Positions 786-37,928 of a stretch of DNA of 44,505 nucleotides are shown here, one piece after another. This DNA comes from a virus. Each line of letters opens with the position of its first letter. Position 1 is the stretch's first letter. The stretch lies in the IMG/VR virus record IMGVR_UViG_3300037324_000041, positions 1-44,505 of that record; one strand, given 5' to 3'. The notes beneath the pieces were generated by a model. It was not told the origin of the DNA. It was given only the letters and a program-made list of their open reading frames with translations, and did no database searches. The translations under genes and the position numbers were made by a program.

Positions 786-1229
786 TTCCCAAAGTGAATA
801 TTGATTTACCGGACCAGAAGTTTCATTAAGCTTCATGCGATCTTTGAAACTAAATCCAAAATGTTTGGAATAATTATCAATTTCTTTAAGCATTTTTTCG
901 CGCAATGTTACATGACCAGAAACATTGGATGCACCAGAAGTAAAGGTTTGCACTAACCCACCATTATATCCTTTTTCTGCAATTTTTGATTCGGCTTCAA
1001 GCAAATAGGTAACGCTTCTAGATAATTGATGCAAGTGAAGTAAATCTGGAGCGGTTAATTTATTGCTATCTACTAGCAATTGACCGTAATAGTTATACCA
1101 ATAATTCTGATCTTTTGTAAGATTCATTTTTTTCATTGGTGATGGCAATTTTTTAAGGATTGGATAAAGATTTTTATTTTGTGAATTTCCTTCTCCTACT
1201 ACAACCGATAAATGACTATTATTTTTCAT
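759..1229 (-). CDS. terS: Phage terminase small subunit, P27 family
   Basis: This 156-residue protein has the P27 small-terminase layout: a helical region with YWYNYYGQLL near residue 43, LTAPDLLHLHQL near 58, an A-x-x-I-x-x-x-G step near 85, and FGFSFKDRMKL near 125, matching the family pattern FGxxPxxRxKL. Small terminases recognise packaging sites and load the large terminase. The HNH nuclease at 1312 just upstream fits the HNH-TerS pair of cos-packaging phages. The large terminase and portal that should follow to the left are absent: a convergent ORF and a hairpin repeat sit there. Length is normal, so the gene itself looks intact. Confidence 0.75.
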   Translation of the reverse strand: MKNNSHLSVVVGEGNSQNKNLYPILKKLPSPMKKMNLTKDQNYWYNYYGQLLVDSNKLTAPDLLHLHQLSRSVTYLLEAESKIAEKGYNGGLVQTFTSGASNVSGHVTLREKMLKEIDNYSKHFGFSFKDRMKLNETSGPVNQYSLWELEKMQQSS

Positions 1230-1311
1230 AATTAACTAATTTAAAAACACTTAACCCCCCTTACCTATTTATTTTACTTAGTAAAATCCTAACTAATCAG
1301 CGATGTACACC

Positions 1312-1653
1312 CTATTTTCTAACTAGTGATTTTACCCCATATCCCCTTTCTGAACCAGATTTTTTATTGTGGCATTCTTTGCTCATAGATTGTAACTCAT
1401 TGTAATCGTATGCATCCAAATTATTATCTAAAAGGAATTTCAATCCTTTGATATGATCGCAAACTTCGGCTGGCTTTACTTGTTCACTTATGATACATTC
1501 TTTGCATTCACATAAAGGATTCTTAATTCGATACGCAATCGAAACCTTGCGCCATCTTCTTTGATTATAGAACCATGTGAAGTCAATTGGTCTTTCAAAT
1601 GCAATTCGTTCTGCCACATAGTTTCTTGTTATTTTTTCAGGAGCTTTTGCCAT
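1312..1653 (-). CDS. HNH endonuclease, packaging-associated type
   Basis: A 113-residue protein starting MAKAPEKITRNYVA. A longer frame extends to 1731 but runs inside dnaB, so the ATG at 1653, one base past the dnaB stop, is preferred. It shows the phage HNH pattern: WRKVSIAYRIKNPLCECKEC (Cys ligands), then VCDHIKGL with the central His, then a Cys-His-Asn-Lys end (ECHNKKSG). In many cos phages such an HNH protein sits beside TerS and helps the terminase cut DNA. Its position next to the P27 gene supports that role, which is inference from family and context. Confidence 0.75.
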   Translation of the reverse strand: MAKAPEKITRNYVAERIAFERPIDFTWFYNQRRWRKVSIAYRIKNPLCECKECIISEQVKPAEVCDHIKGLKFLLDNNLDAYDYNELQSMSKECHNKKSGSERGYGVKSLVRK

Positions 1654-1654
1654 A

Positions 1655-3178
1655 TTAAAAAGTATTAAAATCATTATTTTCAGGATTACTTTCAAAAGCA
1701 TCGTTAGGATTAATTTTTGGCAGTTCATCAATGCAATTGATCATTTCATTATCAATAATGTTTTGTTGAATTAAGTCTTCTGGATCCATGAATTTTGTTT
1801 TATTTTCATCAAAGAACAACCCTTTTCTATCTAGAGATCCATTACGATGTTTAGCAATTATAAATTCAGCATTAGCACCAATAGCAAGCATATCTTCATC
1901 ATCTTCTAAACCATAATAACTTGCACGATATATAAAGGCAACCATGTCTGCATCTTGTTCAATTGCGCCAGATTCGCGCAAATCTTTTAACATTGGACGT
2001 TTGCTTGAACCACGAGATTCTACATCACGACTTAGTTGTGAAAGCAATACAATAGGTATTTTCAATTCCTTTGCCAATCTTTTTAATGTTCTTGTTATGG
2101 TTGAAATTTCTTGTTCTCTAATTAAATTTTTACCTAATGATTTACAGCTCATTAACTGCAGGTAATCAATGATAACAATCTTAATTCCTAACTTTCTTTT
2201 CCATAATCTAATTTTAGCAGAAACATCTTGAATATCTATAGAAACGTCATCAAAATATGCAGGAAGTATTTCCATTTCTTGCTTTAGATTTCTAAACTGA
2301 TTAAAATATTCTGTTTTTTCAAATCCTGTTCTAAACAATTGGTTTAAATGAAAATGACTATTGCACGCAACCATCCTAGTTATAAGTTGCTGTGTGCTCA
2401 TTTCGCAACTAATAAATCCTGTAGGTATTCCATGCTTAACATTTTCTAACAAAGTTTTCATTACCAAAGAAGTTTTCCCCATTCCTGGTCTTGCTGCAAT
2501 TACAATCAAATCACCATCTTGAAAACCGTTTGTAACTAAGTCTACTTTTTTAAATCCGGTATAACATCCAGAAAGTTCATATTCGCTTTTAGAACTTAAA
2601 ACTTCAATTCGTTTATGAATAAGTTTTAAAGCTTCCAACATTGTTAAGTCGGTTGTTCCAGATAATATTTGTTCGTTGATCTGATCTAAGTTTTTACTTT
2701 GTAAATCAATTAAATCAAAAATGTCTGAATCTGCATCGTAGGCGTTTTCAATAACTTGAGATGCGCTTTTTATCATTTTGCGTTTAACCCATTGTTGCAA
2801 TAAAATTCTACTATGAAATTCTATATGAGAACTAGATGCAACTTTTTGTGTTAGTTGGACCAAATAATAATCTCCGCCAATTCTTTCAAGATTATTTGTA
2901 GTTTTTAATTTATAGGAAACTGTTAACAAATCCACGTTTTCGTTGGCTAATTTTAAACTTTTAATAGCTTCAAATATTAGCTTATGTGAATCTTTGTAAA
3001 AGACATCTGAATCTTTTATAATCATTAAACATTCATCAATGCTTTGCGTATCTATCATAAGCGCACCCAAAACTGCTTCTTCTAAGTCAATTGCTTGCGG
3101 CGGAAGTTTTCCTTTTTCTAAGCTAATAATTGATGACCTATCATTATTTTTCTGACTTAAATTTTTAATTGTTTCCAT
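1655..3178 (-). CDS. dnaB: Replicative DNA helicase, DnaB-like
   Basis: A 507-residue hexameric helicase of normal length. The N-terminal DnaB domain (PPQAIDLEEAVLGALMID near 26-43) is followed by a RecA-like core with Walker A ARPGMGKTS near 230, Walker B KIVIIDYLQLM, and the C-terminal run DLRESGAIEQDADMVAFIYR. It unwinds DNA ahead of the phage fork and binds primase. It starts next to the initiator gene (3179-3865), giving an initiator-helicase pair as in lambda O/P or SPP1 systems. The last 60 residues after DRKGLFFDE are acidic and poorly conserved. Confidence 0.93.
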   Translation of the reverse strand: METIKNLSQKNNDRSSIISLEKGKLPPQAIDLEEAVLGALMIDTQSIDECLMIIKDSDVFYKDSHKLIFEAIKSLKLANENVDLLTVSYKLKTTNNLERIGGDYYLVQLTQKVASSSHIEFHSRILLQQWVKRKMIKSASQVIENAYDADSDIFDLIDLQSKNLDQINEQILSGTTDLTMLEALKLIHKRIEVLSSKSEYELSGCYTGFKKVDLVTNGFQDGDLIVIAARPGMGKTSLVMKTLLENVKHGIPTGFISCEMSTQQLITRMVACNSHFHLNQLFRTGFEKTEYFNQFRNLKQEMEILPAYFDDVSIDIQDVSAKIRLWKRKLGIKIVIIDYLQLMSCKSLGKNLIREQEISTITRTLKRLAKELKIPIVLLSQLSRDVESRGSSKRPMLKDLRESGAIEQDADMVAFIYRASYYGLEDDEDMLAIGANAEFIIAKHRNGSLDRKGLFFDENKTKFMDPEDLIQQNIIDNEMINCIDELPKINPNDAFESNPENNDFNTF

Positions 3179-3865
3179 TTACGATATGTTTTTTTTCATA
3201 TATGCAGGAACAACATCTGCATTAAAATTGTTTTTTGGACTTTCAAACTTATCCTGGTTTCTAATCCAGTTGCCTGCATACTTTTTAAATCTGCCAGAAA
3301 TTACATGTTGTTCGTATGCCAAACCTTCTTGCTCAACTGTTGCTTCAAAACTTTCTACAAAAGCATCCCAAGTTTTAATTTGCTTTTTATATTGCATCAT
3401 TAAAACATCAAATTGAGATGGAAAATTTTCTTTAAAAAAAGAAAGTGAATCTCTTTCTTTATTAATTGTATTATTAATTGTAATACTCTCATATATTGAC
3501 GTGCGTTTTTCCGCAATAGGTGTTGCGTTTTTTGACAATACCTCTTGTGTTTTTCCGCAATAGGTATTGCGCTTTTTCGCAATAGGTATTTTGATGTTTT
3601 GAACTAAGAATATTTTACGAGTATTTCCATTTTTTTTATCTAATTGAGTCCTAATATGATTGCATTTTTCTAGTAAAGAAATCCATCTAGAAATGGTCCA
3701 AACATTAACGTTGTACAAATCTGCGAAATAACTATTTTCTGACCAGCAATAACCCTCTGATGTACACAATGCAGATATTTCACCATAAAGCAATTTCGCA
3801 TTAGGATTTAAATTAACATCGTATCTTACAGACGCAGGAATAACTGCATAATAGTTTGGCTGCAT
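3179..3865 (-). CDS. Phage replication initiator with HTH domain
   Basis: A 228-residue protein. Residues 1-105 form a winged-helix domain of the HTH_36 kind (YYAVIPASVRYDVNLNPNAK, then NSYFADLYNVNVWTISRWIS), as in phage and plasmid initiators. The centre (about 90-125) is Lys-rich and encoded by four 22-bp DNA repeats. The C-terminal part (WDAFVESFEATV through FKKYAGNWIRNQDK) resembles the helicase-loader end of DnaD/lambda O-type proteins. The next gene is dnaB, so it probably binds its own iterons and loads DnaB. The start ATG overlaps the stop of 3865-4305 (TAATG). Confidence 0.7.
   Translation of the reverse strand: MQPNYYAVIPASVRYDVNLNPNAKLLYGEISALCTSEGYCWSENSYFADLYNVNVWTISRWISLLEKCNHIRTQLDKKNGNTRKIFLVQNIKIPIAKKRNTYCGKTQEVLSKNATPIAEKRTSIYESITINNTINKERDSLSFFKENFPSQFDVLMMQYKKQIKTWDAFVESFEATVEQEGLAYEQHVISGRFKKYAGNWIRNQDKFESPKNNFNADVVPAYMKKNIS
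3503..3590. repeat. Four abutting 22-bp iterons, candidate phage origin
   Basis: Units at 3503-3524, 3525-3546, 3547-3568 and 3569-3590. Units 1, 3 and 4 share TTTTTCCGCAATAGGT or a near variant (unit 4 has CTTTTTCGCAATAGGT). Unit 2 keeps GCGTTTTTT but diverges to GACAATACCTCTT. The 22-bp period is not a multiple of three, so the repeat is conserved at DNA level, not as a protein repeat. Iterons inside the initiator gene are the arrangement of the lambda origin in gene O. Confidence 0.7.
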
Positions 3866-4305
3866 TATTTGATATTTAAATATTTAAATCTAACCAACTC
3901 TGATGCTACAACCGCATTACTCAATTTTACCATTGCATCGGCTTTTTTTATATCTATATCGTTTGATCCAGATTCAGACAATAAATTAAAAATTTCTTCT
4001 AACTTATCTGCCATACGGGTTGCTCTGTTGTTTAAATTAACAACGATAGCCTGGTGAACTTGTTCTTCGGGTTTTTGTACAATTGGAAAATTTTTTATAT
4101 TTTCGGATATTGCATTTTTTGTTCTCACGATAGATGCCGAAACTTCTTTAAAAAACTCTTGGTACTCGTTCTCGAAATAAACAAAACTTTTTTTATCAGT
4201 AACTATAACCGCTTTTTGATTTACAATTTTTGCCGATTTTACTATATAAAGATTAGACTTCCAGAAAAACTTTGATTCTTCAAATAAATTAATTGTTTCC
4301 TTCAT
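3865..4305 (-). CDS. Hypothetical phage early protein
   Basis: A 146-residue protein starting MKETINLFEESKFFWKSNLY. No family recognised. The second half is strongly helical (ATRMADKLEEIFNLLSESG, then KKADAMVKLSNAVVASELVR) and could form a coiled coil. It lies in the early operon between a homing-type nuclease and the replication initiator, overlapping both (17 bases upstream, 1 base downstream), so it is probably translationally coupled. A replication accessory role is possible but unsupported. Confidence 0.6.
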   Translation of the reverse strand: MKETINLFEESKFFWKSNLYIVKSAKIVNQKAVIVTDKKSFVYFENEYQEFFKEVSASIVRTKNAISENIKNFPIVQKPEEQVHQAIVVNLNNRATRMADKLEEIFNLLSESGSNDIDIKKADAMVKLSNAVVASELVRFKYLNIK

Positions 4306-5158
4306 GATTTTTAATTTTATGGTTTAATTGTAGGGATTTTCTTTTTAGCTCGATGACATACGGCAGTTGATCAATGACTTCTTTAATTTGCACCGGATCT
4401 TTTACTTTTAAAAACCGCTTTACAATACCAACATCGCTCATAATATTAATTTTCAAACTATCTTGTCGCGATACCAATATTAGATTTGATATTTTAAAAT
4501 TAAATTTATTACCGTCTTTAAATCGCACCTGGTGTTTAGCAGGAATTGGTCCGTATTGGCGCTCGTAAATCATTCTGTGTTTTAATTGAAAATTATCAGT
4601 ACTATTTTCAAAATCGCCAATCTTAACTTCTAAATACCCTTCTGCAGTTACTCTTTTAAAACCAATTGCAACGGTATTGTGCGGAATTATTCCTTTTTTG
4701 AATTGTGTTTTTGCAGATCTTTTAATTTGATCGGCAGTCATATATTCCCATTGTTTTTTATCTTTATTCATGGGTACATGACCTTTCTTAAATCGGGTTT
4801 TAATACCTTGCATTTTCAAAATATTTCCCCCAATTAAAGCCAAATGTTCTTTACTTTTTTTTATATTTATCAAATTAGCTGCACAATACAAACTTTTTAA
4901 ACTACAATTAAATTTTGTAGTCAATTGTATATTTAATGTGTTTGAATAATGTATTTTTAAATAATCTAAATCTTCCTGGTTCCATTTTTTGTGCTTGCCA
5001 AAACCAACAGCTTTAGTTACTTTTAACAAATTGGCGCGACTTCGTATTGCTTTGACACTTCTGGATACAACATATTTTTGCATTTCTTGCAATGGCGTTT
5101 TTGGCCAATATTTTTTTACTAAATTATCTTCTTCTAAAGTCCACTTTTTTTGATGCAT
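4289..5158 (-). CDS. HNH homing-endonuclease-like protein with two Myb/SANT-type repeats
   Basis: A 289-residue protein. Residues 1-50 (KKWTLEEDNLVKKYW) and 58-100 (HKKWNQEDLDYLKIHY) are two SANT/Myb-like DNA-binding units. Around residue 190 lies an HNH_3-like core: LKHRMIYERQYGPIP, then VRFKDGNKFNFKISNLILVS. The usual second His (xxHxDGN) is replaced here (VRFKDGN), so nuclease activity is uncertain. Such genes are frequent free-standing passengers in phage early regions, where they cut related genomes and spread by repair; others act as DNA-binding proteins. Confidence 0.7.
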   Translation of the reverse strand: MHQKKWTLEEDNLVKKYWPKTPLQEMQKYVVSRSVKAIRSRANLLKVTKAVGFGKHKKWNQEDLDYLKIHYSNTLNIQLTTKFNCSLKSLYCAANLINIKKSKEHLALIGGNILKMQGIKTRFKKGHVPMNKDKKQWEYMTADQIKRSAKTQFKKGIIPHNTVAIGFKRVTAEGYLEVKIGDFENSTDNFQLKHRMIYERQYGPIPAKHQVRFKDGNKFNFKISNLILVSRQDSLKINIMSDVGIVKRFLKVKDPVQIKEVIDQLPYVIELKRKSLQLNHKIKNHEGNN

Positions 5159-5160
5159 AA

Positions 5161-5316
5161 TTAAGAATTTAAAGAATCATTATAGTTATCTAATTCTTTT
5201 TGCGCATCATGAATGTCGACCAACGTTAAAATTAATATGTAACCAAAAAAAAGAAGTGCCGTAATTATAATGGCTAAAAAAAGCGATATAAGAATAAGTA
5301 AGATAAAAGTTGCCAT
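5161..5316 (-). CDS. Small membrane protein
   Basis: A 51-residue frame starting MATFILLILISLFLA. Almost all of residues 3-33 is hydrophobic, enough for one long or two short membrane segments, followed by a charged tail (HDAQKELDNYNDS). It sits in the early operon 2 bases upstream of the start of 4289-5158, with the AATTATG junction typical of this operon. Function unknown; it may be an exclusion or host-interaction peptide. Confidence 0.5.
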   Translation of the reverse strand: MATFILLILISLFLAIIITALLFFGYILILTLVDIHDAQKELDNYNDSLNS

Positions 5317-5333
5317 AGTATTAAAATTAGTAG

Positions 5334-5633
5334 TTAATAAATCATTGCTTTAATTTGGGCTGTCATTATGCGATATACCTTGTTTTTATCTTGGTAAAAA
5401 GTATCTTTAGGAAACTTTCCGTTCAAACACCATCTTCTTAAAGTTTCAGAATCGGTGACATTAAAAAATTTGGCAGAAATTATTTCGCTAAGTGTTAATG
5501 ATTTTCTTCTTAATAATTTACCACGAACTATCTCGTTATTCATTTCTAATTCGCCCTGGTTAACAATCACCAAGTTGTTATCTTTTAAATGCTGCATAAA
5601 ATCGGCAACATTTATGTATTGCACGGCACTCAT
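5334..5633 (-). CDS. HTH protein, excisionase/MerR-like
   Basis: A 99-residue protein. The C-terminal half reads SLTLSEIISAKFFNVTDSET followed by LRRWCLNGKFP and YRIM, which is the winged-helix pattern of excisionase-like and helix_turn_helix_17 proteins (sense target, turn, W..NG.fP). It lies four genes from the integrase in the early operon, where an excisionase or Cox-like regulator would be expected. The N-terminal 45 residues are unusual for Xis and unassigned. The stop codon overlap with the upstream gene (5630) is 4 bases (ATGA). Confidence 0.55.
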   Translation of the reverse strand: MSAVQYINVADFMQHLKDNNLVIVNQGELEMNNEIVRGKLLRRKSLTLSEIISAKFFNVTDSETLRRWCLNGKFPKDTFYQDKNKVYRIMTAQIKAMIY

Positions 5634-5818
5634 TTTTTAAATATTTTACGAATTCTTGCTATAAAAATGCAATAATCAATTGCCATAAATACGACAGAAA
5701 AAATCAAAGCAAAAATTGCAAATAAAATTTTATCAAAGCAAAAAAGCAAAAAGCCAATAATTACAGAAAGCCATGCAGCTATTTCGTAGGTAGTTGGAAG
5801 GTATTTCATCTTACTCAA
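5630..5818 (-). CDS. Small two-helix membrane protein
   Basis: A 62-residue protein with two hydrophobic segments (IAAWLSVIIGFLLFCF and ILFAIFALIFSVVFMAIDYC) and a basic C-terminus (ARIRKIFKK). It overlaps both neighbours in the early operon by 4-8 bases, so it is translated with them. Family unknown; possible superinfection-exclusion protein, by position only. Confidence 0.5.
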   Translation of the reverse strand: MSKMKYLPTTYEIAAWLSVIIGFLLFCFDKILFAIFALIFSVVFMAIDYCIFIARIRKIFKK

Positions 5819-6065
5819 TTTTTAGTTTGTCAAATACACTTTCTAAAACTTCAATAATTTCAGAATCAAAAATTCTAATATGCCAAAAATCATAAAGCCG
5901 ATTTTCATCAATTTCTGGATAGTAATTCTGAACAATTGATTTTAAAGCTTCAAAACTTTTAAAACCTTTATCAAAAAAACTTTTTAAAATTTGTGAAGAC
6001 TTTTGAGCCGATATAATTCGGTTTAAGGTTTTCATATCCCTTTGTTTAAGATTTTTTACTTCCAT
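5811..6065 (-). CDS. Hypothetical phage early protein
   Basis: An 84-residue, charged, helical protein starting MEVKNLKQRDMKTLNR. It is the first gene of the leftward early operon, just downstream of a TACATTTG promoter element at 6119-6126. A second in-frame ATG at residue 11 is an alternative start. The motif ENRLYDFWHIRIFDSEI near residue 54 recalls small proteins often first in Bacteroidetes phage early operons, but I cannot name a family. Confidence 0.55.
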   Translation of the reverse strand: MEVKNLKQRDMKTLNRIISAQKSSQILKSFFDKGFKSFEALKSIVQNYYPEIDENRLYDFWHIRIFDSEIIEVLESVFDKLKIE

Positions 6066-6118
6066 AGTGGCACAACTTTTGTATATTTGCTTTTATAATT
6101 CCGTGTAGAACTATGAAA

Positions 6119-6150
6119 CAAATGTAACACTTTTATATCACAAATTACAA
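6119..6150 (-). promoter_or_regulatory. Early promoter of the left phage
   Basis: On the minus strand TACATTTG (6119-6126) fits the Bacteroidetes -7 element TAnnTTTG, with TTG 21 bases upstream (6148-6150). It would drive the leftward early operon from 6065. A plus-strand TATATTTG at 6082-6089 may serve the divergent regulator gene at 6205. The two signals are close together, as in a lysogeny switch region. Confidence 0.5.
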
Positions 6151-6204
6151 TAATTATACAATAAATTTATAAAAATTATTAATAATAAATATAAACATCT
6201 GATT

Positions 6205-6588
6205 ATGTACGGATTAACAAAAAAACAAAAGCTAGATTTTATACTTAAAAAAGTGATAGAATTTGAATTAACCGCTTACGATATTGGGAAGAAAACCAAT
6301 TTAAGCATAACAGGGATAGATAAAATTATAAGTGGCGAATCAAAAAACCCACATGAAAATACCCTAAATACAATTTTGATTTACCTAGAAGAATTGGTTA
6401 TAGGAACCAACTTAAATAATAATTCTGCACAAAACATTGTTTCGGAATCTAAGAATGAAGAATTATTAAATGTAACAAGCAATCCTGAATTTTTAATAAA
6501 ATGTTTATTAGAACAAATAAAGCTAAAAGACGAAATTGCTAGACTTAAATTAATATTGGAAAAAAATAATATTAATTTTAAAGAATAA
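6205..6588 (+). CDS. HTH transcriptional regulator, probable phage repressor
   Basis: A 127-residue protein. Residues 5-60 form a Cro/CI-type HTH (LTAYDIGKKTNLSITGIDKI, then SGESKNPHENTLNTIL). The C-terminal region (IKLKDEIARLKLILEKNN) is a coiled coil likely used for dimerisation. It is transcribed divergently from the early operon and towards the integrase end, the classic position of a lysogeny repressor. There is no LexA-like autocleavage domain, so induction would not be by the simple CI route. Confidence 0.7.
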   Translation: MYGLTKKQKLDFILKKVIEFELTAYDIGKKTNLSITGIDKIISGESKNPHENTLNTILIYLEELVIGTNLNNNSAQNIVSESKNEELLNVTSNPEFLIKCLLEQIKLKDEIARLKLILEKNNINFKE

Positions 6589-6625
6589 ATAGTTTTTGAT
6601 TATTTTAGCATATAAATTTATTATT

Positions 6626-7129
6626 ATGAAAATATTTTACTTTATACTATTTATTTCAATGTCTGTTTTTAGTCAAAAAAAATCAATTCCAGCGGAATTT
6701 TCTGTAACAAATAATAATGCGATCATTTGGACCAAGGTTTACAAAAATAATTCAAGCGAATTAATAAAGGATTTAAGAAATAATTTATCCTTAAAAATAA
6801 ATGAAGATTCAACAGGAACTGCAAATAATTTAAGATTGCGATGCAGTAATTTATCCGGATATACCTTTGCAAATTTTCAGATAAATTTTCAAATAGAATC
6901 TAAAGAATCTGAATATAGAATTAAGGTAAGTAATGTTGTTTTTGATGAAAATATCCAAATTAACCTAGGTTCTGTTCGCACAGAAGGAACATTTAATACT
7001 TTAGAAGATTTTGAATTACGAACTACCGATAATACCCTACGTAAAAATGGCCAATCGGCAAGAAATCTTATTTGCTTAAATGAATTTTTGACTAAAATGT
7101 TTACCGCACAATTACTCGATAAATGGTGA
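6626..7129 (+). CDS. Secreted protein, DUF4468-like, possible lysogenic conversion gene
   Basis: A 167-residue protein starting MKIFYFILFISMSVFSQ, a clear signal peptide with likely cleavage after FSQ. A frame upstream to 6596 opens with TTG and is less likely. The mature part (IIWTKVY... then YRIKVSNVVFDENIQI) resembles the TBP-fold DUF4468 proteins of Bacteroidetes; this is a tentative match. It follows the repressor by 37 bases on the same strand, so it may be expressed in the lysogen. It ends 18 bases inside the convergent integrase. Confidence 0.55.
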   Translation: MKIFYFILFISMSVFSQKKSIPAEFSVTNNNAIIWTKVYKNNSSELIKDLRNNLSLKINEDSTGTANNLRLRCSNLSGYTFANFQINFQIESKESEYRIKVSNVVFDENIQINLGSVRTEGTFNTLEDFELRTTDNTLRKNGQSARNLICLNEFLTKMFTAQLLDKW

Positions 7130-8353
7130 ACGATCTACACATTCAAAACTACTTATAATTTTAAATAACGCTTCATCTCGCATTTTTTCAGGGTATTTAT
7201 CTTTATAATAATTATCAATATCGTTTCTTTCATGGCCCATTAATTCACGTATAACGTCAGTATCCACCAACATATTTTTGGCAATATTAGCAAAGGTATG
7301 GCGAGCCACTTTTACCCCTAAATTTCCGCCAAGCGGTTTTATTTCAATTTCTAATTCGCTTTGTGCTGCAGCAATGTGTCGCCTGTAATTTACTCCAAAA
7401 CTTATATAACTAGCTTTATCTTTTTTAAACGGAAATAAATATTCGTCAGTTCCGCCAGAATATTTATCAAAAATTGCTTTTGCTTTTGGATGTATTTTTA
7501 AATCAATAAGCAATTCGGTACTAGTTTTTATTCTTTCAAAAAATATTCTATTTTTTTTTATATAATGCTTTTTAAAATAATAAACATCTACCAAATCACA
7601 TCCTCCAAGGTAAAATGACAATAGCCAAAAATCTAAATAAAAACGCTGTTTTTTACTAACATTTGCAGTTTCTAAAATATATATATCACTTTTAGAAATA
7701 TACTTTTTTCGGCTATTATAACTTTTAGAAGATAATCCGGCACAAACGCCTTTAAAAGGATTTTTATCTACAAGGGCATATTTCTGAATTCCCTGGTTAT
7801 AGATTGATTGAAGTATTTTTAAATAAATTTGCACCGTACTTTTTTTATTTCCGATGCTTTGTCGGTGATTTTTAAACCGAAATAAAACTTCTGATTCTAA
7901 GGTGTCAAGAAAGCAATTTGGCGCAAATATTTTAAACTGGTTAATTACGGCATTGTACGTTTTTATGTTTCCTAAAATTTTATTTTGCGATCTTAAATCG
8001 TTAATTTTCGCAAAATTATCAGATGTATTTTTCATTTCCTGGACAAGTTTTGTAGCATGATCAATAAATTTCATTTTGTCCATACTTTCAGAAAATAATT
8101 CGTTCATAAGATTATCTACATCTATTGCGCCGTTCAAAATTAATTTTCTAACTTTGATTTTCATATCCAAAATTTTTGGCGCCAAAATATCATAATCGGG
8201 ATGTTTGTCCGTAATCATTTCAGTTTCTAAATTAAAATGCTTTTTGCTGCATTCCCAAATATCTTTTTGCCTTCTTGCATTTTTATGAGCTATTTTTAGG
8301 TATAAAACAGAATTCCTATTTGGTTCTATTCTTAATTTAAAATGATATGTCAT
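7112..8353 (-). CDS. int: Tyrosine-type site-specific integrase
   Basis: A 413-residue phage integrase of the Bacteroidetes type: N-terminal arm-binding region (1-100), SAM-like core-binding domain (about 100-220), and a catalytic domain with ARHTFANIAKN near 352, LMGHERNDIDNYY and the nucleophile Tyr near 384-385. Arg I is not at its usual place (YLGGCDLVDV instead of an Arg-containing motif) and the HxxR His is Lys (KVAR). It faces the repressor convergently and is the outermost gene of the left phage, so attP should lie in 8354-8586. Confidence 0.88.
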   Translation of the reverse strand: MTYHFKLRIEPNRNSVLYLKIAHKNARRQKDIWECSKKHFNLETEMITDKHPDYDILAPKILDMKIKVRKLILNGAIDVDNLMNELFSESMDKMKFIDHATKLVQEMKNTSDNFAKINDLRSQNKILGNIKTYNAVINQFKIFAPNCFLDTLESEVLFRFKNHRQSIGNKKSTVQIYLKILQSIYNQGIQKYALVDKNPFKGVCAGLSSKSYNSRKKYISKSDIYILETANVSKKQRFYLDFWLLSFYLGGCDLVDVYYFKKHYIKKNRIFFERIKTSTELLIDLKIHPKAKAIFDKYSGGTDEYLFPFKKDKASYISFGVNYRRHIAAAQSELEIEIKPLGGNLGVKVARHTFANIAKNMLVDTDVIRELMGHERNDIDNYYKDKYPEKMRDEALFKIISSFECVDRSPFIE

Positions 8354-8364
8354 TTGTGTTTTAT

Positions 8365-8432
8365 TTGCGTTTGATAGGTAAAAAGCGGTAATTTGAGGAG
8401 CAAATTTAGCTTTTTAATTAATACAAACGCAA
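8365..8432. repeat. Inverted repeat overlapping the integrase promoter
   Basis: The left arm TTGCGTTTG...TAAAAAGC (8365-8386) mirrors the right arm GCTTTTTA...CAAACGCAA (8409-8432), 9 and 8 paired bases with an unpaired patch. A minus-strand TAAATTTG (8401-8408) with TTG at 8430-8432 makes a plausible integrase promoter within it. It is a candidate regulator site or recombinase arm site. Confidence 0.55.
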
Positions 8433-8586
8433 TAAAAAATAAGGATATGACTGGTATAGCGATATTTAGAAGAAAAATTTAAATTGCTAATACTTTAACT
8501 AATGCTAAACATTCATAAATTTATAATTATTTGTAAATCAATTATTTAAAAACAAAAACAATATTTCATTTGTTAATTATTTGCTT
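8433..8586. other. AT-rich spacer between two phages, candidate attachment region
   Basis: Roughly 155 very AT-rich bases between the integrase promoter and the last gene of the middle phage's lysis operon. No tRNA fragment, terminator or ORF is evident. By position it should contain the attachment site of the left phage, but the core sequence cannot be identified without the other att junction. Confidence 0.3.
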
Positions 8587-8784
8587 TTAAATACTAAAAG
8601 GAACTACAATTAAAGAATTTATTTCTTTTTTTAAAAACATGATTTCTGACTGTACTTTACCCAACTGGGTAAATAGTTTGTCATTTACTTCGAATAACGA
8701 TTCGATGTTTGCGAATATTCGTGCTTTTTTAAGCAGTAATTCTTGCAGCTTTGTATTTAGTTGCTTTTGAAGAATTGTATCCAT
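8587..8784 (-). CDS. Small coiled-coil protein after the lysis cassette
   Basis: A 65-residue, almost wholly helical protein (LNTKLQELLLKKARIFANIE, then LGKVQSEIMFLKKEINSLIV) with heptad-like spacing. Its ATG lies inside the 3' end of the spanin gene (28-base overlap), so it is probably coupled to it. It is the final gene of the middle phage's leftward late operon. Function unknown. Confidence 0.5.
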   Translation of the reverse strand: MDTILQKQLNTKLQELLLKKARIFANIESLFEVNDKLFTQLGKVQSEIMFLKKEINSLIVVPFSI

Positions 8785-9305
8785 TTTGTTCGATATTTAT
8801 AAATGATAACAGCAATGATTAAAATTAAAAATCCTAAAAAATAAATAATAATCGGAATTCCATATCGGTCCACTTCTTTATTTTTTTCTTTGGCTTTTGT
8901 GGCTACTTTTTTTTCTTCGTTAAATTTTATGTTTAATTCAGAATCAATTTTATTTTGCTCTTGCACTATTTTACTTTCTGCTGTAGTAGTTTTTTTATTT
9001 TTCTTTTTTAGTGTTCCAGAACCTTTATATTTTAAACCACCAAGGCTTTTACCTTTGCTGTCAAATTTTTCTATAATTAAAGAATCACCTGGTTTAATTT
9101 CTACTTCAAATTCATCTTCTTCTACTTCCGATTTTGAATCTGTTGCTTCCGTTTTTTTTTGATCTACCTTTATAATTTCGGTTGTGTTTTGTTCTGTATT
9201 TTTAACCTTATTAGTTTCGGTTTTGCTTTCTTGCTTATTCTTTTTTAAGGAAGAACAGCTTAATAAAAAGAAAGAAAATATTAGTATTATTAATTTTGTT
9301 TTCAT
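8757..9305 (-). CDS. Unimolecular spanin (lipoprotein with C-terminal TM)
   Basis: A 182-residue protein with an N-terminal lipoprotein signal (FSFFLLSCSS, lipobox Cys near 17) and one C-terminal membrane helix (IPIIIYFLGFLILIIAVIIY, about 150-170), separated by a Lys/Glu-rich helical linker. One chain anchored in both outer and inner membranes is the definition of a u-spanin (as T1 gp11), which fuses the membranes in the last lysis step. It follows the endolysin and holin genes directly, which fits. Primary sequence is not conserved among spanins, so the call rests on architecture and position. Confidence 0.75.
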   Translation of the reverse strand: MKTKLIILIFSFFLLSCSSLKKNKQESKTETNKVKNTEQNTTEIIKVDQKKTEATDSKSEVEEDEFEVEIKPGDSLIIEKFDSKGKSLGGLKYKGSGTLKKKNKKTTTAESKIVQEQNKIDSELNIKFNEEKKVATKAKEKNKEVDRYGIPIIIYFLGFLILIIAVIIYKYRTKWIQFFKSN

Positions 9306-33761: not shown

Positions 33762-33797
33762 TAGGTTCGTATATATACAAGTTATAAGAAATAGCTA
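33762..33797 (-). repeat. Half-site of the hairpin repeat, after 33795 gene
   Basis: Minus strand: TAGCTATTTCTTATAAC (33781-33797) starts at the stop codon of 33795-34019 and equals the corresponding arm of the 34042-34190 hairpin save for one or two bases. The matching GTTA arm is missing, so this is a one-armed or eroded copy. Confidence 0.6.
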
Positions 33798-34019
33798 CAT
33801 TTCGTTTTCAAAATAACGATTTTTATCAGCAATCATTTCTAATTGTTGTTTATTATATTCTTCTTCAAAATTTTCTTGTTCTATAATACATTTTGCGGTC
33901 TCAATAGCCCATAATAAACCACTTTTGAATCCTTCGGCTTTTGCACTTGTTATTTGGTCTTTTTTATTACCTATAAAGGCATCGTGTTTATCTTGTAAAC
34001 TTTTTATTAATCTTTCCAT
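33795..34019 (-). CDS. Accessory array gene 6
   Basis: A 74-residue helical acidic protein starting MERLIKSLQDKHDAFIGNKK, ending KNRYFENEM. The last eight codons and stop (GAAAACGAAATGTAG) closely match the end of the neighbouring gene 34190-34396, because both run into the same hairpin arm. It is preceded by the hairpin at 34042-34190. No family named; it belongs to the array of promoterless accessory genes. Confidence 0.55.
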   Translation of the reverse strand: MERLIKSLQDKHDAFIGNKKDQITSAKAEGFKSGLLWAIETAKCIIEQENFEEEYNKQQLEMIADKNRYFENEM

Positions 34020-34041
34020 AATTATTTTATTTTAAATTATC

Positions 34042-34190
34042 CGCTACTTCTTATAACAGCGGTTTTATTCAATTGCGAATTTTGTAGTAAAATCACGTTC
34101 ACTTTTCGCATTACGTTTTGTTGTGGCGGAAAAATCTCGGGTACGAACTTCGCAACTGAAATAAAGCCGCAAAACGTTATAAGAAATAGC
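34042..34190 (-). repeat. Long hairpin repeat E (attC-like)
   Basis: 149 bases. Outer arms GCTACTTCTTATAAC (34043-34057) and GTTATAAGAAATAGC (34176-34190) pair with one mismatch. Inner arms GCGGTTTTATTCAATTGCGA and TTCGCAACTGAAATAAAGCC nearly pair. The right outer arm includes the TAG stop of 34190-34396 (minus strand). About 94% identical over 120 bases to the copy at 115-250. Confidence 0.85.
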
Positions 34191-34396
34191 TATATTTCGT
34201 TTTCGGAATAACTATTCCTCTCGTCCTGTAATATTTGCAATAATCTTTCTGGAGTTAAAATATAGCCAGTTAATGCTTCGTGTGCGCCAAATTTTCCACA
34301 ATCAGAATAGAAATCAATTATTATTCTTTTATCTTCTAAAATTTCTATTGAAGCTTCAATTATTTGTTCTTCTTTTGGTTTGTATAGTAAACTCAT
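34190..34396 (-). CDS. Accessory array gene 5
   Basis: A 68-residue protein starting MSLLYKPKEEQIIEASIEIL, then KRIIIDFYSDCGKFGAHEAL, ending RNSYSENEI. The stop TAG is the first codon of the hairpin arm at 34176-34192. Its start follows the 41-residue membrane peptide by 4 bases, so the two form one cassette-like unit between hairpins D and E. Function unknown. Confidence 0.55.
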   Translation of the reverse strand: MSLLYKPKEEQIIEASIEILEDKRIIIDFYSDCGKFGAHEALTGYILTPERLLQILQDERNSYSENEI

Positions 34397-34400
34397 TTTT

Positions 34401-34526
34401 TTATTTTTTAATTAATGCTACTTTTATAATCGTATCAGAAACTAGATTGAAAAAGTAAATAGTCAAAATTGCTATTACAAATCCAATTAATAATGGTTCT
34501 AAATTCTTTAAAATATATTTTTTCAT
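34401..34526 (-). CDS. 41-residue membrane peptide in the array
   Basis: ATG at 34526; MKKYILKNLEPLLIGFVIAI then LTIYFFNLVSDTIIKVALIK. It has one membrane helix (about 11-27) with a positive N-terminus. It begins 15 bases after hairpin D and ends 4 bases before 34190-34396, so both are bounded by the same two hairpins. Too small to assign; possible toxin-like or exclusion peptide. Confidence 0.5.
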   Translation of the reverse strand: MKKYILKNLEPLLIGFVIAILTIYFFNLVSDTIIKVALIKK

Positions 34527-34540
34527 AATTACTATTAGTT

Positions 34541-34645
34541 TAAATTACCCGCTACTTCTTATAACAAGTGTTTGTAAATACCAGCCGAATTTATGTTGGT
34601 GCGTAGGCTGGCATCTACAAGCACCAAGACGTTAGCGGTAATTTA
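34541..34645 (-). repeat. Long hairpin repeat D (mosaic arms)
   Basis: About 105 bases. The outer arm TAAATTACCCGCTA (34541-34554) pairs with TAGCGGTAATTTA (34633-34645). The inner arm GTGTTTGTAAATACCAGCC pairs with GGCTGGCATCTACAAGCAC at 16 of 19 positions. The left arm also carries the CTTCTTATAAC of hairpin E, which has no partner on the right. The TAA stop of 34632-35006 lies within the right arm (34632-34634). Confidence 0.8.
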
Positions 34646-35006
34646 TTTCGACCTCGTACCCAAGCTCACCTAAAACTGCTTTAAGTGCGTTTTTTGAATC
34701 TTCCGCATATTGCTCGTCTAATTTTTTACCATTTAAATAAATGTCTGTACCGTAAATATCACAACATTTATCTCCACATTGGTAGTGCCAATCTTCTAAA
34801 TCAATATTTAACTTAACATACGCTTTTTTGTGTTGCAAAACCCACGCTTCTAAATGTTCGTTAATTCTATCAATATTGTATTCTAAATTTGTCATTCCGT
34901 TTCTACACCAATCGGCAAATCCAATCATATCCTGAGTAGTAAAACTACCGCTAACATCGGTTTTGACTAATGCCGAATCCTGTGATATATTCATATTTTC
35001 GTTCAT
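34632..35006 (-). CDS. Accessory array gene 4
   Basis: A 124-residue protein starting MNENMNISQDSALVKTDVSG, with TTQDMIGFADWCRNGMTNLE and a Cys-rich centre (YQCGDKCCDIYGTDIYLNGK). Its last codons read GAA ATA AAT TAC CGC TAA, and the stop is part of the CGCTAACG hairpin arm. No family recognised; the cysteines may bind metal. It belongs to the promoterless array. Confidence 0.55.
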   Translation of the reverse strand: MNENMNISQDSALVKTDVSGSFTTQDMIGFADWCRNGMTNLEYNIDRINEHLEAWVLQHKKAYVKLNIDLEDWHYQCGDKCCDIYGTDIYLNGKKLDEQYAEDSKNALKAVLGELGYEVEINYR

Positions 35007-35040
35007 AATTACGTTTTGTTTAAAATTAAAATCTATTTTT

Positions 35041-35083
35041 CATAAGTTAGGCACTAGACAAAGCCGAGAACCGTTAGTGGCAA
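35041..35083 (-). repeat. Short hairpin-type repeat C
   Basis: Minus strand: CCACTAACGGTTCTCGGC then TTTGTCTAGTGCC. CACTA pairs with TAGTG only, so it is a short or eroded version. The TAA in CACTAACGG is the stop codon of 35074-35424. The sequence after it (ATAGATTTTAATTTTAAACA) resembles that after repeat A. Confidence 0.6.
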
Positions 35084-35424
35084 CCGTGATTTAGAGACTG
35101 CAAAAACCCCTTTTTTAACGGTTTTGTTTCTTTAATTAATTTTTGAAGTTTTTTGTTTGGTGTCTTTTTTTCTCCATACTTTTCCAATAAAAACTTATAA
35201 TAAAGCTCGGTATTTGTAGATGGTTTTTCAATTCTGTATTGTTCGGTTATTCCTAATTCGTCAAGTATTTCATCCACGAAAGTAATTGTGCTTAATTTAA
35301 AGTAAATTGAAATTAGATTTTTTTGCAATTTCATTCCGATTAAATGTTCAACCGTATAATCTTTGTATTTTCCAAATTTTAAAGTTGATTTTTTAGTCAA
35401 CTTTCTTAATAATATTGAAGCCAT
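35074..35424 (-). CDS. Accessory array gene 3
   Basis: A 116-residue protein starting MASILLRKLTKKSTLKFGKY, then KDYTVEHLIGMK and FVDEILDELGI. I recognise this as a small protein scattered in Flavobacterium accessory regions; no activity is known. Its final codons CAC GGT TGC CAC TAA merge into the CCACTAACGG arm, so the stop is supplied by the repeat. Hairpin B precedes it. Confidence 0.6.
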   Translation of the reverse strand: MASILLRKLTKKSTLKFGKYKDYTVEHLIGMKLQKNLISIYFKLSTITFVDEILDELGITEQYRIEKPSTNTELYYKFLLEKYGEKKTPNKKLQKLIKETKPLKKGFLQSLNHGCH

Positions 35425-35448
35425 AATTTTACTTTTTTACGTGGTATG

Positions 35449-35585
35449 CCACTAACACTCGTTTTGAGCTATTACGGCAATTGTGGTTAAATTAAATTTT
35501 GTTGTTACGTTCACGTTTTAGGTAGCCGAAAATTTATCGTTTCGCAAAGTGCCGCAACAGACACAAAGCGAGAAACCGTTAGTGG
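35449..35585 (-). repeat. Long hairpin repeat B (attC-like)
   Basis: 137 bases. Outer arms CCACTAAC (35449-35456) and GTTAGTGG (35578-35585) pair perfectly, and the next pairing block CTCGTTTT faces AAAGCGAG. The internal sequence shares ACGTTCACG, CCGAAAAT and TTCGCAA with hairpins E and 115-250. The stop of 35579-36016 is the TAA in the CACTAACGG arm. Confidence 0.8.
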
Positions 35586-36016
35586 TCAGTTAAAGAACTA
35601 ATCTGCAATTCTTCACTATTCCGAAAAAAGAATATATTTTGCAAGTGGTGTAGCCCTTTGATTTCAACTCTTGAAACGTATTCAATCCATAGTCCATTAA
35701 TGAAATTAATTTGCATTCCAAATAAATTAAAACTTGGAAAATCTTTAAAATCTAACTTTACAGCATTTAATTTTAAAAGCAATTCTTCTGAAATTGGTAT
35801 CGATTCAAATTCAGAGTGTTCGGTATAATCAAACGTAATTTCATCAATGTATAAGTATTCAGAATCTACACCAATAACTGTACTATATTTTCTTTGTCCG
35901 TAAATTAATTTTACAATATTTCCAATACGTATTTCGGTTGGTAAAATAGCCGAACCGCTGACAACGTTTTGGCAAGATTGCTGATTTTGTGGTTCAATCA
36001 TATTTTTATTTCGCAT
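35579..36016 (-). CDS. Accessory array gene 2, common Bacteroidetes mobile-element protein
   Basis: A 145-residue protein. LPTEIRIGNIVKLIYGQRKY, then IPISEELLLKLNA, and near the end IKGLHHLQNIFFFRNSEELQ follow a pattern (RIGNxV ... PIxLtxexLxxxxF ... HxLQNxxFxxxxxEL) that is very frequent in Bacteroidetes accessory regions; its activity is unknown. The stop TAA is in the hairpin arm (CACTAACGG). It is the first gene after the promoter at 36108-36136. Confidence 0.65.
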   Translation of the reverse strand: MRNKNMIEPQNQQSCQNVVSGSAILPTEIRIGNIVKLIYGQRKYSTVIGVDSEYLYIDEITFDYTEHSEFESIPISEELLLKLNAVKLDFKDFPSFNLFGMQINFINGLWIEYVSRVEIKGLHHLQNIFFFRNSEELQISSLTDH

Positions 36017-36048
36017 AATATTTTGTTTAAAATTGATAATTTATTTTT

Positions 36049-36090
36049 CCGTACTCAGCAACTTCGCCAAGACGCAAACCGTTAGAAGTA
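36049..36090 (-). repeat. Short hairpin-type repeat A at the array start
   Basis: Minus strand: TACTTCTAACGG then TTTGCGTCTTGGCGAAGTTG. It has the TAACGG core of the other sites but only a weak partner arm. It lies between the promoter at 36108-36136 and the first array gene, where an integron would have its attI-like point. Confidence 0.5.
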
Positions 36091-36107
36091 ATTATTTATT
36101 GCTTATA

Positions 36108-36136
36108 CAAATATAAAAAATAAATCAAATAAACAA
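36108..36136 (-). promoter_or_regulatory. Promoter reading into the gene array
   Basis: Minus strand: AAAGTATTGTTTATTT with TTG at 36134-36136, an 18-base spacer, TATATTTG at 36108-36115. It is the only clear promoter before the array 36016-33795; the genes inside the array have none, so they depend on it. Confidence 0.8.
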
Positions 36137-36667: not shown

Positions 36668-36960
36668 AACTTTAGTCTTTTAGATTCTTTTTCTTTAAGG
36701 TAACTGTAAATCCAGAAACATACTTCTTGAGTAGAAAGTTTATAGCTTCTACCGTACTTTCCTAAAGCCCCGTTTTTCATTGCTTTTAAAATTTCATTTT
36801 CTTGAACGTAACCAAAGTTTGATTTAACTTCTGCTATAATTTTAGTAAAATCGAATACTTCTACGTTTAACCTATCAAATGCAATTAGCATTGATGCGGA
36901 TAGTTTACAATCTACTATCTGAATTTCGGAGTTGTTCGGCAATCTTTGTAAGTGTGTCAT
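36664..36960 (-). CDS. Hypothetical phage replication-region protein
   Basis: A 98-residue protein starting MTHLQRLPNNSEIQIVDCKL, with FDFTKIIAEVKSNFGYVQEN and YKLSTQEVCFWIYSYLKEKE. It resembles small helical proteins that accompany replisome organisers. It overlaps the previous gene by 56 bases, an unusually long overlap, and the following one by 4, implying coupled synthesis. Function unknown. Confidence 0.5.
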   Translation of the reverse strand: MTHLQRLPNNSEIQIVDCKLSASMLIAFDRLNVEVFDFTKIIAEVKSNFGYVQENEILKAMKNGALGKYGRSYKLSTQEVCFWIYSYLKEKESKRLKL

Positions 36961-37705
36961 TTTCTTGTGTTTTAAAATTAGTTGTTATTTCGTCTTTGTA
37001 GCGCTCTTGGCTTAAGTAAGTGGTCGCGTGTGGGTAATTATATTCTTTAAAAGGTTTGTTAGCTATAAACAACGGTAAATGATATTCTACTAAATCTTTT
37101 TGTTCTTTAGTTAGTTTGTTAAATTTAACCTCGGCTAGTTTCTTATTTGTTTTATTTGGATAAACCTCCCAAAAGTCCGTAAAAGAATATTCAATGATTT
37201 CTGTTTCAAAAATTTCTAAATCTAAAACATCAAAAATTTCAATTTCATCTTTATCTTTAGCTTCATCTTTAGGTTCAACTTTAGCTTCATCTTTCCGAAC
37301 CATTCCGAACCCTTTGCAAAGGGTTTCAAAGCCTTCGTCTGTTTTTTCTAAAGTATTGATTCCTAATATTTTAATATCGTCAGGTAGAGAGTTGTAAACA
37401 TCTACTGCTGATTTTTTCATATTTGGGTTAAATTTTTGATGTTTTATGTAATTAACCAAAATTATATGATTATTAACATATCTAACTTTACAAAGAAGTT
37501 CAAATTTTTTTAAAGAACTATTTATTATTTCTGAATTTAAACCAGTATCAAAAGAAATTTTCTTAATAGATACCTCGTAAATTCCTAACATATTTGTTTT
37601 ATCGTTAGTTATAAAATAGAGAAACAATAATTTTTCATTTGCTGACAAATCCTCAATAAAAGGATCGCTCCAAAATGCGGTGGATACGCTTCTAAGTTTA
37701 GACAT
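36905..37705 (-). CDS. Replisome organiser-like protein (DnaD/phage type)
   Basis: A 266-residue protein starting MSKLRSVSTAFWSDPFIEDL; the GTG four codons upstream is rejected. Residues 1-110 follow the phage replisome-organiser N-domain (NEKLLFLYFITNDKTNMLGI, then YEVSIKKISFDTGL). Residues 130-165 are acidic with two KDEAK units. The end (FTDFWEVYPNKTNKKLAEVK, then YPHATTYLSQERYKDE) is the DnaB-loader-like tail often seen in such proteins. It likely recruits the helicase at this phage's origin. Confidence 0.7.
   Translation of the reverse strand: MSKLRSVSTAFWSDPFIEDLSANEKLLFLYFITNDKTNMLGIYEVSIKKISFDTGLNSEIINSSLKKFELLCKVRYVNNHIILVNYIKHQKFNPNMKKSAVDVYNSLPDDIKILGINTLEKTDEGFETLCKGFGMVRKDEAKVEPKDEAKDKDEIEIFDVLDLEIFETEIIEYSFTDFWEVYPNKTNKKLAEVKFNKLTKEQKDLVEYHLPLFIANKPFKEYNYPHATTYLSQERYKDEITTNFKTQENDTLTKIAEQLRNSDSRL
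37250..37325. repeat. Short repeats in the replisome organiser gene, possible origin
   Basis: CTTTAGCTTCATCTTT occurs at 37255-37270 and 37279-37294 (24-base period, in frame). CCGAACC occurs at 37295-37301 and 37305-37311, next to the palindrome CCCTTTGCAAAGGG (37310-37323). This could be the origin of the middle phage, but the in-frame period means protein repeats are an equal explanation. Confidence 0.35.
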
Positions 37706-37928
37706 TTTTGTCCTCACTTTCTGTAATCTTGTTTATTTCTGTTCGAAGTGTTTTTGCGAATTTAATCGCAGTAGATTTATCTAATGTTATATCTCTAAAA
37801 AAAACACCTTCTTTTAAAGTTATAATAATTTCATTTTTAAGTTTTTCAACTTTAATAAAATCTTTAAAATAAGAATCAAAAAATTTTAATTCAAAATTCG
37901 CCATAATAATAAAGGTTTTAAGTTCCAA
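37698..37928 (-). CDS. Hypothetical early protein
   Basis: A 76-residue protein. A likelier start is the Met at residue 9 (MANFELKFFDSYFKDFIKVE) since the sequence before it looks like leader. It is a mixed alpha/beta charged protein ending in TESEDKNV, overlapping the replisome organiser by 8 bases. Behind a promoter and a leader with an inverted repeat. Unknown function. Confidence 0.5.
   Translation of the reverse strand: MELKTFIIMANFELKFFDSYFKDFIKVEKLKNEIIITLKEGVFFRDITLDKSTAIKFAKTLRTEINKITESEDKNV

Follow-up and report, generated by a model that had tools for sequence, protein, structure and literature searches.

The phage record IMGVR_UViG_3300037324_000041, a stretch of 44,505 bases that was analysed as a whole (hereafter, the window) and called a Flavobacterium-type phage, carries on its minus strand, from position 36016 to position 33795, six open reading frames (ORFs) of 41-145 amino acids with long hairpins in between. 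Comparison with other flavobacterial phages and chromosomes suggests that this region is a CALIN-like array (cluster of attC sites lacking an integron integrase; here, one without any recombinase of its own) belonging to a cassette system of integron-like type with an enzyme other than IntI, a reading to which we assign a probability of about 0.85. We also consider it likely, with somewhat less confidence, that most Flavobacteriaceae capture genes through a second class of integron, in which a XerA-like recombinase replaces IntI; that this recombinase recognises the pairing of a cassette's own ends rather than a fixed core; and that phages, with or without a copy of the recombinase, carry cassettes turned round in the direction that suits phage transcription and shuttle them between chromosomes. 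The loci and genomes compared are designated by labels such as L003, L045 or G477.

The six ORFs of the window were assigned to five cassettes, each laid out as a hairpin, a head, one or two ORFs and a tail, and all on the minus strand. The first attC-like site (site f, 35962-36080, interior of 119 nt) precedes an ORF of 145 amino acids (35579-36016) that matches phrog_10066, a family of unknown function (E 6e-8), and whose head core is altered to GTC. The second (site a, 35456-35577, interior of 122 nt) is followed by an ORF of 116 amino acids (35074-35424) with no match in Pfam or PHROG, and the ends of this cassette are also altered and failed the strict head/tail test described below. The third (site e, 34955-35072, interior of 118 nt) leads into an ORF of 124 amino acids (34632-35006) in a cassette with the head GTTAGCGGTAGTTTT and the tail GTTAGCGGTAATTTA. 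The fourth (site b, 34565-34630), whose interior of 66 nt falls into the short class, has an 85% identical copy in Flavobacterium phage 6H and heads a cassette with two ORFs, one of 41 amino acids (34401-34526), small and membrane-like by eye, and one of 68 amino acids (34190-34396) with a weak match to phrog_38721 (E 0.0015); the head and tail here are GTTATAAGAAGTAGC and GTTATAAGAAATAGC. The fifth (site c, 34057-34175, interior of 119 nt) is followed by an ORF of 74 amino acids (33795-34019), and the head and tail of this cassette form an inverted repeat of 11/11. Apart from the two PHROG matches, Pfam and PHROG searches returned nothing firm for the cassette ORFs, and a scan of the window against Rfam at gathering scores retrieved no family.

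A preliminary description of this DNA had listed three full hairpins (35449-35585, 34541-34645 and 34042-34190), stop codons inside TAAC arms at 34632, 35074 and 35579 (the first being the TAA of TAAC itself) and TAG stops beside an arm at 33795 and 34190; all of these are present. The pattern is, however, more extensive than described. Two sites that could be taken as truncated (e and f, near 35030-35090 and 36035-36095) turned out to be of full length, their right arms running into the next ORF: that of site f overlaps the opening codons of the ORF that ends at 35579, to which it gives the start codon and a leader, and that of site e lies within the following ORF (..VSGSF), so that two hairpins of the window provide the start codon and first codons of their genes. 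Hairpin-coded N-terminal leaders of this kind, for example ..VSGSF, are in frame with unrelated proteins (window 34945-35006 and 35950-36016; L003 and L004), which therefore have a recombination-site-coded N-terminus in common. In addition to the five cassettes, a solitary attC-like site (site d) is located at 123-242, also on the minus strand; it shares 95% identity in its interior with site 5 (34175-34057), while both outer flanks differ.

A common pattern is found at the cassette ends. The head (from G|TT) and the cassette's own tail (up to AAC) are 15-nt inverted repeats whose sequence varies from cassette to cassette. They have one fixed mismatch, at position 11, which is G in the head and A in the reverse complement of the tail. 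Of the 14 positions beyond GTT, 8.65 paired between own ends, compared with 5.09 between a tail and the adjacent head and 5.12 in shuffled combinations (maximum of 5.44 in 200 shuffles; n = 127 unique cassettes). Since the repeat itself varies, what is conserved is that the two ends of one cassette pair with each other, as one would expect if the functional form were a circular cassette. In 71 sequences, 229 pairs matching at no fewer than 9 of 11 positions were detected, 121 of them perfect (11/11), and shuffled sequences (three each) gave means of 5 and 0, respectively. When position 11 was left free, G/A or A/G was recovered in 274 of 339 strand-wise entries. In all, the pattern was seen in hundreds of cassettes from flavobacterial phages and chromosomes. 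When the window was searched alone at a threshold of at least 10/11, five matches were obtained (20 shuffles gave a mean of 0.4 and a maximum of 3); these correspond to cassettes 3, 4 and 5, a cross-pair of cassettes 4 and 5 and a chance match within the phage integrase gene.

The hairpins were examined with a detector for the pattern TAACG..hairpin..GTT, run on 56 sequences (55 loci and the window). It retrieved 157 sites with a score of at least 14, compared with 3 in one Markov-shuffled copy, and the interiors fell mostly into two length classes of about 64-68 and 109-125 nt. In cassettes found by their ends alone, own hairpin arms scored 12.4 and swapped arms 5.7; a score of at least 10 was reached by 257 of 342 such cassettes (183 of the 213 phage ones and 74 of the 129 from chromosomes and other genome loci) and by 1.9% of swaps. 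Because the arms of end-detected cassettes pair with their own arm only, the hairpins do not depend on the method by which the cassettes were found. Among 14 genome stretches containing the 17-mer GTTATAAGAAGTAGCGG, perfect own-end repeats are present in L058, L059, L063 and L066 and a 10/11 repeat in L070; a 9/11 repeat in L069 and the 17-mer itself in the remaining stretches were set aside as chance or another repeat. In L062, L064 and L060, which are non-flavobacterial metagenome-assembled genomes, the 17-mer recurs every 126-378 bases, mostly 126 or 252, and represents another repeat family.

The preliminary description had suggested looking for a tyrosine recombinase linked to such arrays, and one was found both in phages and in chromosomes. 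Viral contigs were searched with the recombinase that adjoins the array of L037, and 32 loci were obtained. Cassettes are present in 17 of them, and in 16 of the 21 that extend at least 1.7 kb upstream of the gene; the nearest cassette ends 53-1295 bases before the gene. In most loci printed, the last tail and the start codon of the gene are joined by a conserved, hairpin-free junction, AAC|TACTATATGTA.. or AAC|GTTCCCATTTACTCAACC.. The control set, 20 loci of the integrase that the window itself carries (each 5-17 kb long), yielded no array, just three singletons with GTTT heads. L109 has three further cassettes on the other strand and L114 has one downstream; L109/L022 represents a phage carrying cassettes of opposite polarity near one recombinase.

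A profile (A1) was built from 16 phage array-linked enzymes, leaving out L098 and L114, which contain stop codons in the given frame, and, by choice, L110 and L112. It found a match at E ≤ 1e-60 in 187 of the 299 Flavobacteriaceae genomes searched. Two sets of chromosomal loci, neither a random draw, were then inspected: 20 high-scoring loci, mostly on long contigs, and 20 further regions, mostly lower-scoring and on long contigs, of which L236, the second piece of a genome already counted, was left unscored. In the first set, cassettes were found in 15 of 20 loci, with 75 of 76 inverted repeats being G/A and none lying upstream of the gene; two of the five array-free loci (L184 and L188) end about 1 kb or less past the gene. 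In the remaining 19 loci of the further set, cassettes lie downstream of the gene in 13 and upstream in 5, and one locus has none. Linkage was thus observed in 33 of 39 chromosomal loci, in four of them (L187, L194, L231 and L235) on the strength of one repeat. Eight genomes were followed further and gave 126 inverted repeats; in 121 of these the A side faces the recombinase, and all 121 lie on its 3′ side. The longest array covers 68 kb and has 42 detected cassettes. In 10 of the 15 array-bearing loci of the first set, the junction that follows the stop codon of the recombinase is the exact starting point of the first cassette detected. This junction mostly consists of a palindrome, which differs in sequence between loci, and then a few bases before G|TT, or else reads TATAWACAAG|TT (L180, L187, L193, L194 and L195). 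Judged by its position in these sequences, it is an attI-like platform that adjoins the recombinase and has the array on one side.

Could these be ordinary integron cassette arrays moved by canonical IntI, in a Bacteroidota flavour? The general plan is the same (an ORF with a hairpin, a G|TT boundary and an attI-like end), and canonical IntI is common in the phylum, where 105 of 395 genomes exceed the TIGR02249 cut-off. Moreover, one study (PMC9892861) reports that IntI1 moved a site of Polaribacter phage P12002L, and we find three own-end repeats of the present family in this phage, which may or may not include that site. The linked recombinase nevertheless forms a clade of its own. In a tree of 40 sequences, the phage, flavobacterial, IntI and Xer groups were each recovered at 100/97-99, and the phage and flavobacterial groups were joined at 98/91, with a warning from the program about long branches. 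According to passages of PMC9668308 and PMC8138268, IntI is defined by an insert, an additional domain around patch III, which in the integron-like subgroup of the latter is not fully conserved. The distance between the GKGxKDR and HxLRH motifs is 53 residues in 9 of 18 phage enzymes (the other 9 were unread by the motif pattern) and 58-59 in two of three flavobacterial ones, as compared with 64-68 in three Xer proteins and 100-101 in 14 of 16 IntI. By this defining protein feature, read from the sequences, the linked recombinase is without the IntI-specific insert and is not IntI.

The linked enzymes score 115-215 with TIGR02249 (cut-off of 265), and the best NCBIfam match of those tested is NF040815, which NCBI names 'site-specific tyrosine recombinase/integron integrase' (cut-off of 220): chromosomal enzymes score 208-235 bits (L059, 232; L178, 235; L187, 232 and L195, 222 above the cut-off; L075, 215 and L192, 208 below it) and phage enzymes 155-187 (L083/L037, 187; L022, 155). 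The nearest solved structure to the L059 enzyme, by sequence and by fold, is XerA (5hxy); structure prediction, tried as a means to tell XerA from IntI, gave no separation. Canonical IntI was not detected in any of the 299 Flavobacteriaceae genomes, either at E ≤ 1e-80 or over the cut-off, in a run in which no control genome matched either. The own G/A inverted repeat was absent from all 20 canonical IntI loci (4.5-20 kb each, with the presence of an array in each stretch unchecked). In one such locus, L175, three cassettes (at about 1039-8853) have 15-nt own inverted repeats with no fixed mismatch at position 11, and extended own-end pairing may therefore be older than either recombinase. As the preliminary description had cautioned, the cores fit RYYYAAC/GTTRRRY poorly, GTTRRRY being found in just 15 of 246 heads and 16 of 259 tails. 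Its remark that the window has no integron integrase also holds: the window's own integrase (7112-8353; Phage_int_SAM_5, phrog_1) scores 22 bits with NF040815 and has no match to TIGR02249, and tblastn with two array-linked recombinases against the whole window gave nothing at E ≤ 1. We therefore regard movement by canonical IntI as improbable. What remains of the original proposal of an integron cassette array is an array with attC-like hairpins; an ordinary integron it is not, since the recombinase is not IntI, the cores do not fit and the phage hairpin belongs to the downstream ORF.

That last point, and the nature of the mobile unit, were examined in homologous cassettes that occupy different positions (145 pairs, many of them from a few closely related isolates). 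In the 81 pairs with differing flanks, the mean identity of the upstream hairpin is 0.87 (above 0.8 in 43) and that of the downstream side 0.70 (above 0.8 in 15). Assignment of the hairpin to the upstream ORF was therefore rejected for phages; it tends to stay with the ORF downstream, on the 5′ side. Where the same tail has different neighbours, similarity stops 0, 1 or 2 bases past AAC in 99 of 124 pairs. Cassettes can be followed individually among closely related Flavobacterium phage isolates. Cassettes B and C adjoin in L045, and in L024 a single 468-base unit (X) lies between them, at AAC|; B is identical over 238 bases and the first 24 bases of the hairpin of C are unchanged, with a length difference further on. 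In this one case of insertion examined, no duplication apart from the shared TAAC core was seen. In L012, L017 and L039, B and C are separated by another cassette, M, of which L045 has a 98.9% copy after E. Judging from these alignments, a cassette, comprising an ORF and its hairpin site, is exchanged as a unit at G|TT.

The same comparisons bear on a second alternative, still less probable than the first, in which the hairpins are mobile repeats resembling miniature inverted-repeat transposable elements or repetitive extragenic palindromes, or else terminators, that were inserted between phage genes, while homologous recombination from one repeat to another accounts for gene shuffling. A solitary repeat such as site d, which has only its interior in common with site 5, would fit this alternative, as would one junction at which the exchange fell inside a hairpin, and hairpins at ORF ends could serve as terminators. 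It does not account for 15-nt inverted repeats that flank the ORF instead of the hairpin and vary by cassette, for the sharp breakpoints at AAC or for the constant polarity of arrays next to one recombinase. Nor does the hairpin behave as an element that moves without a gene and duplicates its target, since it tends to move jointly with its downstream ORF and X was inserted without extra duplication. The preliminary description had named hairpins away from ORF ends, flanking target duplications and a conserved gene order as observations that would speak against a cassette array; instead, stop codons lie no more than 20 nt from the AAC of the tail in 180 of 214 phage cassettes, the insertion examined left no duplication beyond TAAC and the cassette order varies among closely related phages.

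The orientation of the ORFs differs between the two kinds of arrays. In eight chromosomal arrays, 104 ORFs point away from the recombinase and 12 toward it, with five cassettes lacking an ORF of 40 amino acids; in phages, the ORF is reversed relative to chromosomal arrays in 214 of 221 cassettes (268 of 276 with duplicates). Relative to attI, the sites themselves have one polarity in phages and chromosomes alike. The placement of the hairpin at the 3′ end of the ORF, as originally proposed, is thus seen in these eight chromosomal arrays and reversed in phages, where start codons lie within the hairpin in 61 of 214 cassettes. The ORFs of the window face the attI end and can therefore be read by the phage's own transcription; we infer that cassettes exist both ways round and that phages retain those readable by phage transcription. 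Arrays with ORFs in both directions were observed in L059 (Flavobacterium fragile, 1300-7600; 4 and 6) and in G477 (L189 and L205-L207; 10 and 9), which are perhaps meeting points of phage-type and chromosome-type cassettes. That the own-end repeats act in RNA, as a stem closing the transcript of each gene, with arrays kept by selection for expression and not by recombination, is the least probable explanation of all: the coding-strand hairpin is the more stable one in 166 of 220, as RNA would also require, and start codons do lie within hairpins, yet the G/A polarity tracks the recombinase and not the gene, phage and chromosomal ORFs pointing in opposite directions relative to the recombinase.

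The array of the window stops at 33781, where the tail TTCTTATAAC is followed by TTGTATATATAC. This attI-like array end (33764-33780, minus strand; ..TATAAC|TTGTATATATAC..) has no hairpin and reads TATATACAAG|TT on the other strand, a sequence also found behind five chromosomal recombinases; it thus resembles the junctions at some of them. The gene that follows the array end has a weak match to AAA_25 (E 2e-4, under the cut-off) and is no recombinase. Since the window has no array-linked recombinase while its array end is like chromosomal junctions, the array was probably captured in trans at an attI-like site by an enzyme of the host or of a co-infecting phage. The search for further TTGTWTA array ends in phages gave 20 other matches, all without an own head (at most 8/11) and many inside hairpins; since the window's end is unique among the phage loci scanned, the claim of assembly in trans is weaker than the rest. 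Elsewhere in the window, a 12-base unit is repeated four times in tandem at 37238-37294, within the replication-protein gene 36905-37717.

The following scheme would bring these observations together. A cassette consists of one ORF, sometimes two, and one hairpin site, with complementary 15-nt arms at both ends, and can be written from the attI side as G|TT(N7)A(N4) .. ORF .. (N4)C(N7)AAC-hairpin-G. Upon excision as a circle, its own two ends would be brought together, one strand forming a long stem there, and a XerA-related tyrosine recombinase would insert the circle at the attI-like site or at another hairpin, with the exchange at G|TT. At the fixed G/A position, one strand would have a G-T wobble and the opposite strand a C-A mismatch, and the position could in this way mark the strand and the end for the recombinase.

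Several observations weigh against an integron-like system of this kind. Eighty-five of the 342 end-detected cassettes score below 10 for a hairpin, and cassettes 1 and 2 of the window, recognisable by eye, fall below the 10/11 head/tail threshold. The strand bias in hairpin stability, which bears only indirectly on recombination of a folded single strand, is modest. At the M|C junction of L012, the start of the hairpin is unlike that of C elsewhere and equals the sequence after M in L045, which indicates that exchange inside hairpins also occurs. ORFs of F. fragile point both ways. The predicted fold of the recombinase (pTM of 0.53) fits XerA and IntI about equally. The 17-mer found 53 viral loci; in the DNA fetched for them, only L022 and L037 contain a relative of the recombinase, with a partial match in L051, so that most phage arrays may be without one. 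As regards the array end, the attI-like match of the window comprises about 10 bases; of the five chromosomal loci with this sequence, an array was detected in L180, L187 and L194 only, with an exact start in two; and the window's end is the only own-tail end of its kind among the phage loci scanned.

Should an integron-like system with its own recombinase be confirmed, most Flavobacteriaceae hold an unrecognised gene-capture platform whose cassettes are traded by phages, and hundreds of unknown small genes constitute a defined mobile pool. The system would also be a natural experiment on the integron mechanism, bearing on the elements of IntI and attC that it requires and on the choice of strand and polarity. 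A literature search covering titles and the openings of abstracts, with most subscription papers and all bioRxiv preprints outside it, found no description of such a system, and the arrays apparently represent an undescribed, non-IntI variant of the integron, which is common in flavobacterial genomes and may be a route by which flavobacteria and their phages exchange genes. According to PMC9668308, the IntI domain is a requirement in searches of the IntegronFinder type, and the platforms described here would therefore go unreported as complete integrons.

The closest known counterparts in phages are the 17 CALINs that Qi et al. (2023; PMC9892861) identified among 10,705 phage genomes with IntegronFinder and HattCI. 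These are likewise attC sites without an integrase, and they include P12002L. The main text does not contain the terms Flavobacteri- or Bacteroid-, and the parts covered mention neither a linked non-IntI recombinase nor an own-end rule. In Treponema integrons, as described in PMC3607928, transcription of the recombinase runs toward attI, an arrangement also seen in most of the chromosomal loci that we examined; Treponema uses IntI, however, and both geometries occur in the present loci. Xer enzymes act on dif-like sites. The linked enzymes, with the XerA family NF040815 as their best match, sit instead at cassette arrays. Cassettes of integrons also have own ends that are complementary over a short core. 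With integrons, the present system has in common tandem arrays of diverse small ORFs, each with a hairpin site, the G|TT boundary, an attI-like platform by a tyrosine recombinase, chromosomal ORFs pointing mostly away from attI and arrays of superintegron size. It differs from them in a recombinase of another clade without the IntI-specific domain, in a complementarity of 15 nt with the fixed G/A exception and a core unfit to GTTRRRY, and in phage ORFs that face attI and often draw their start codons from the hairpin.

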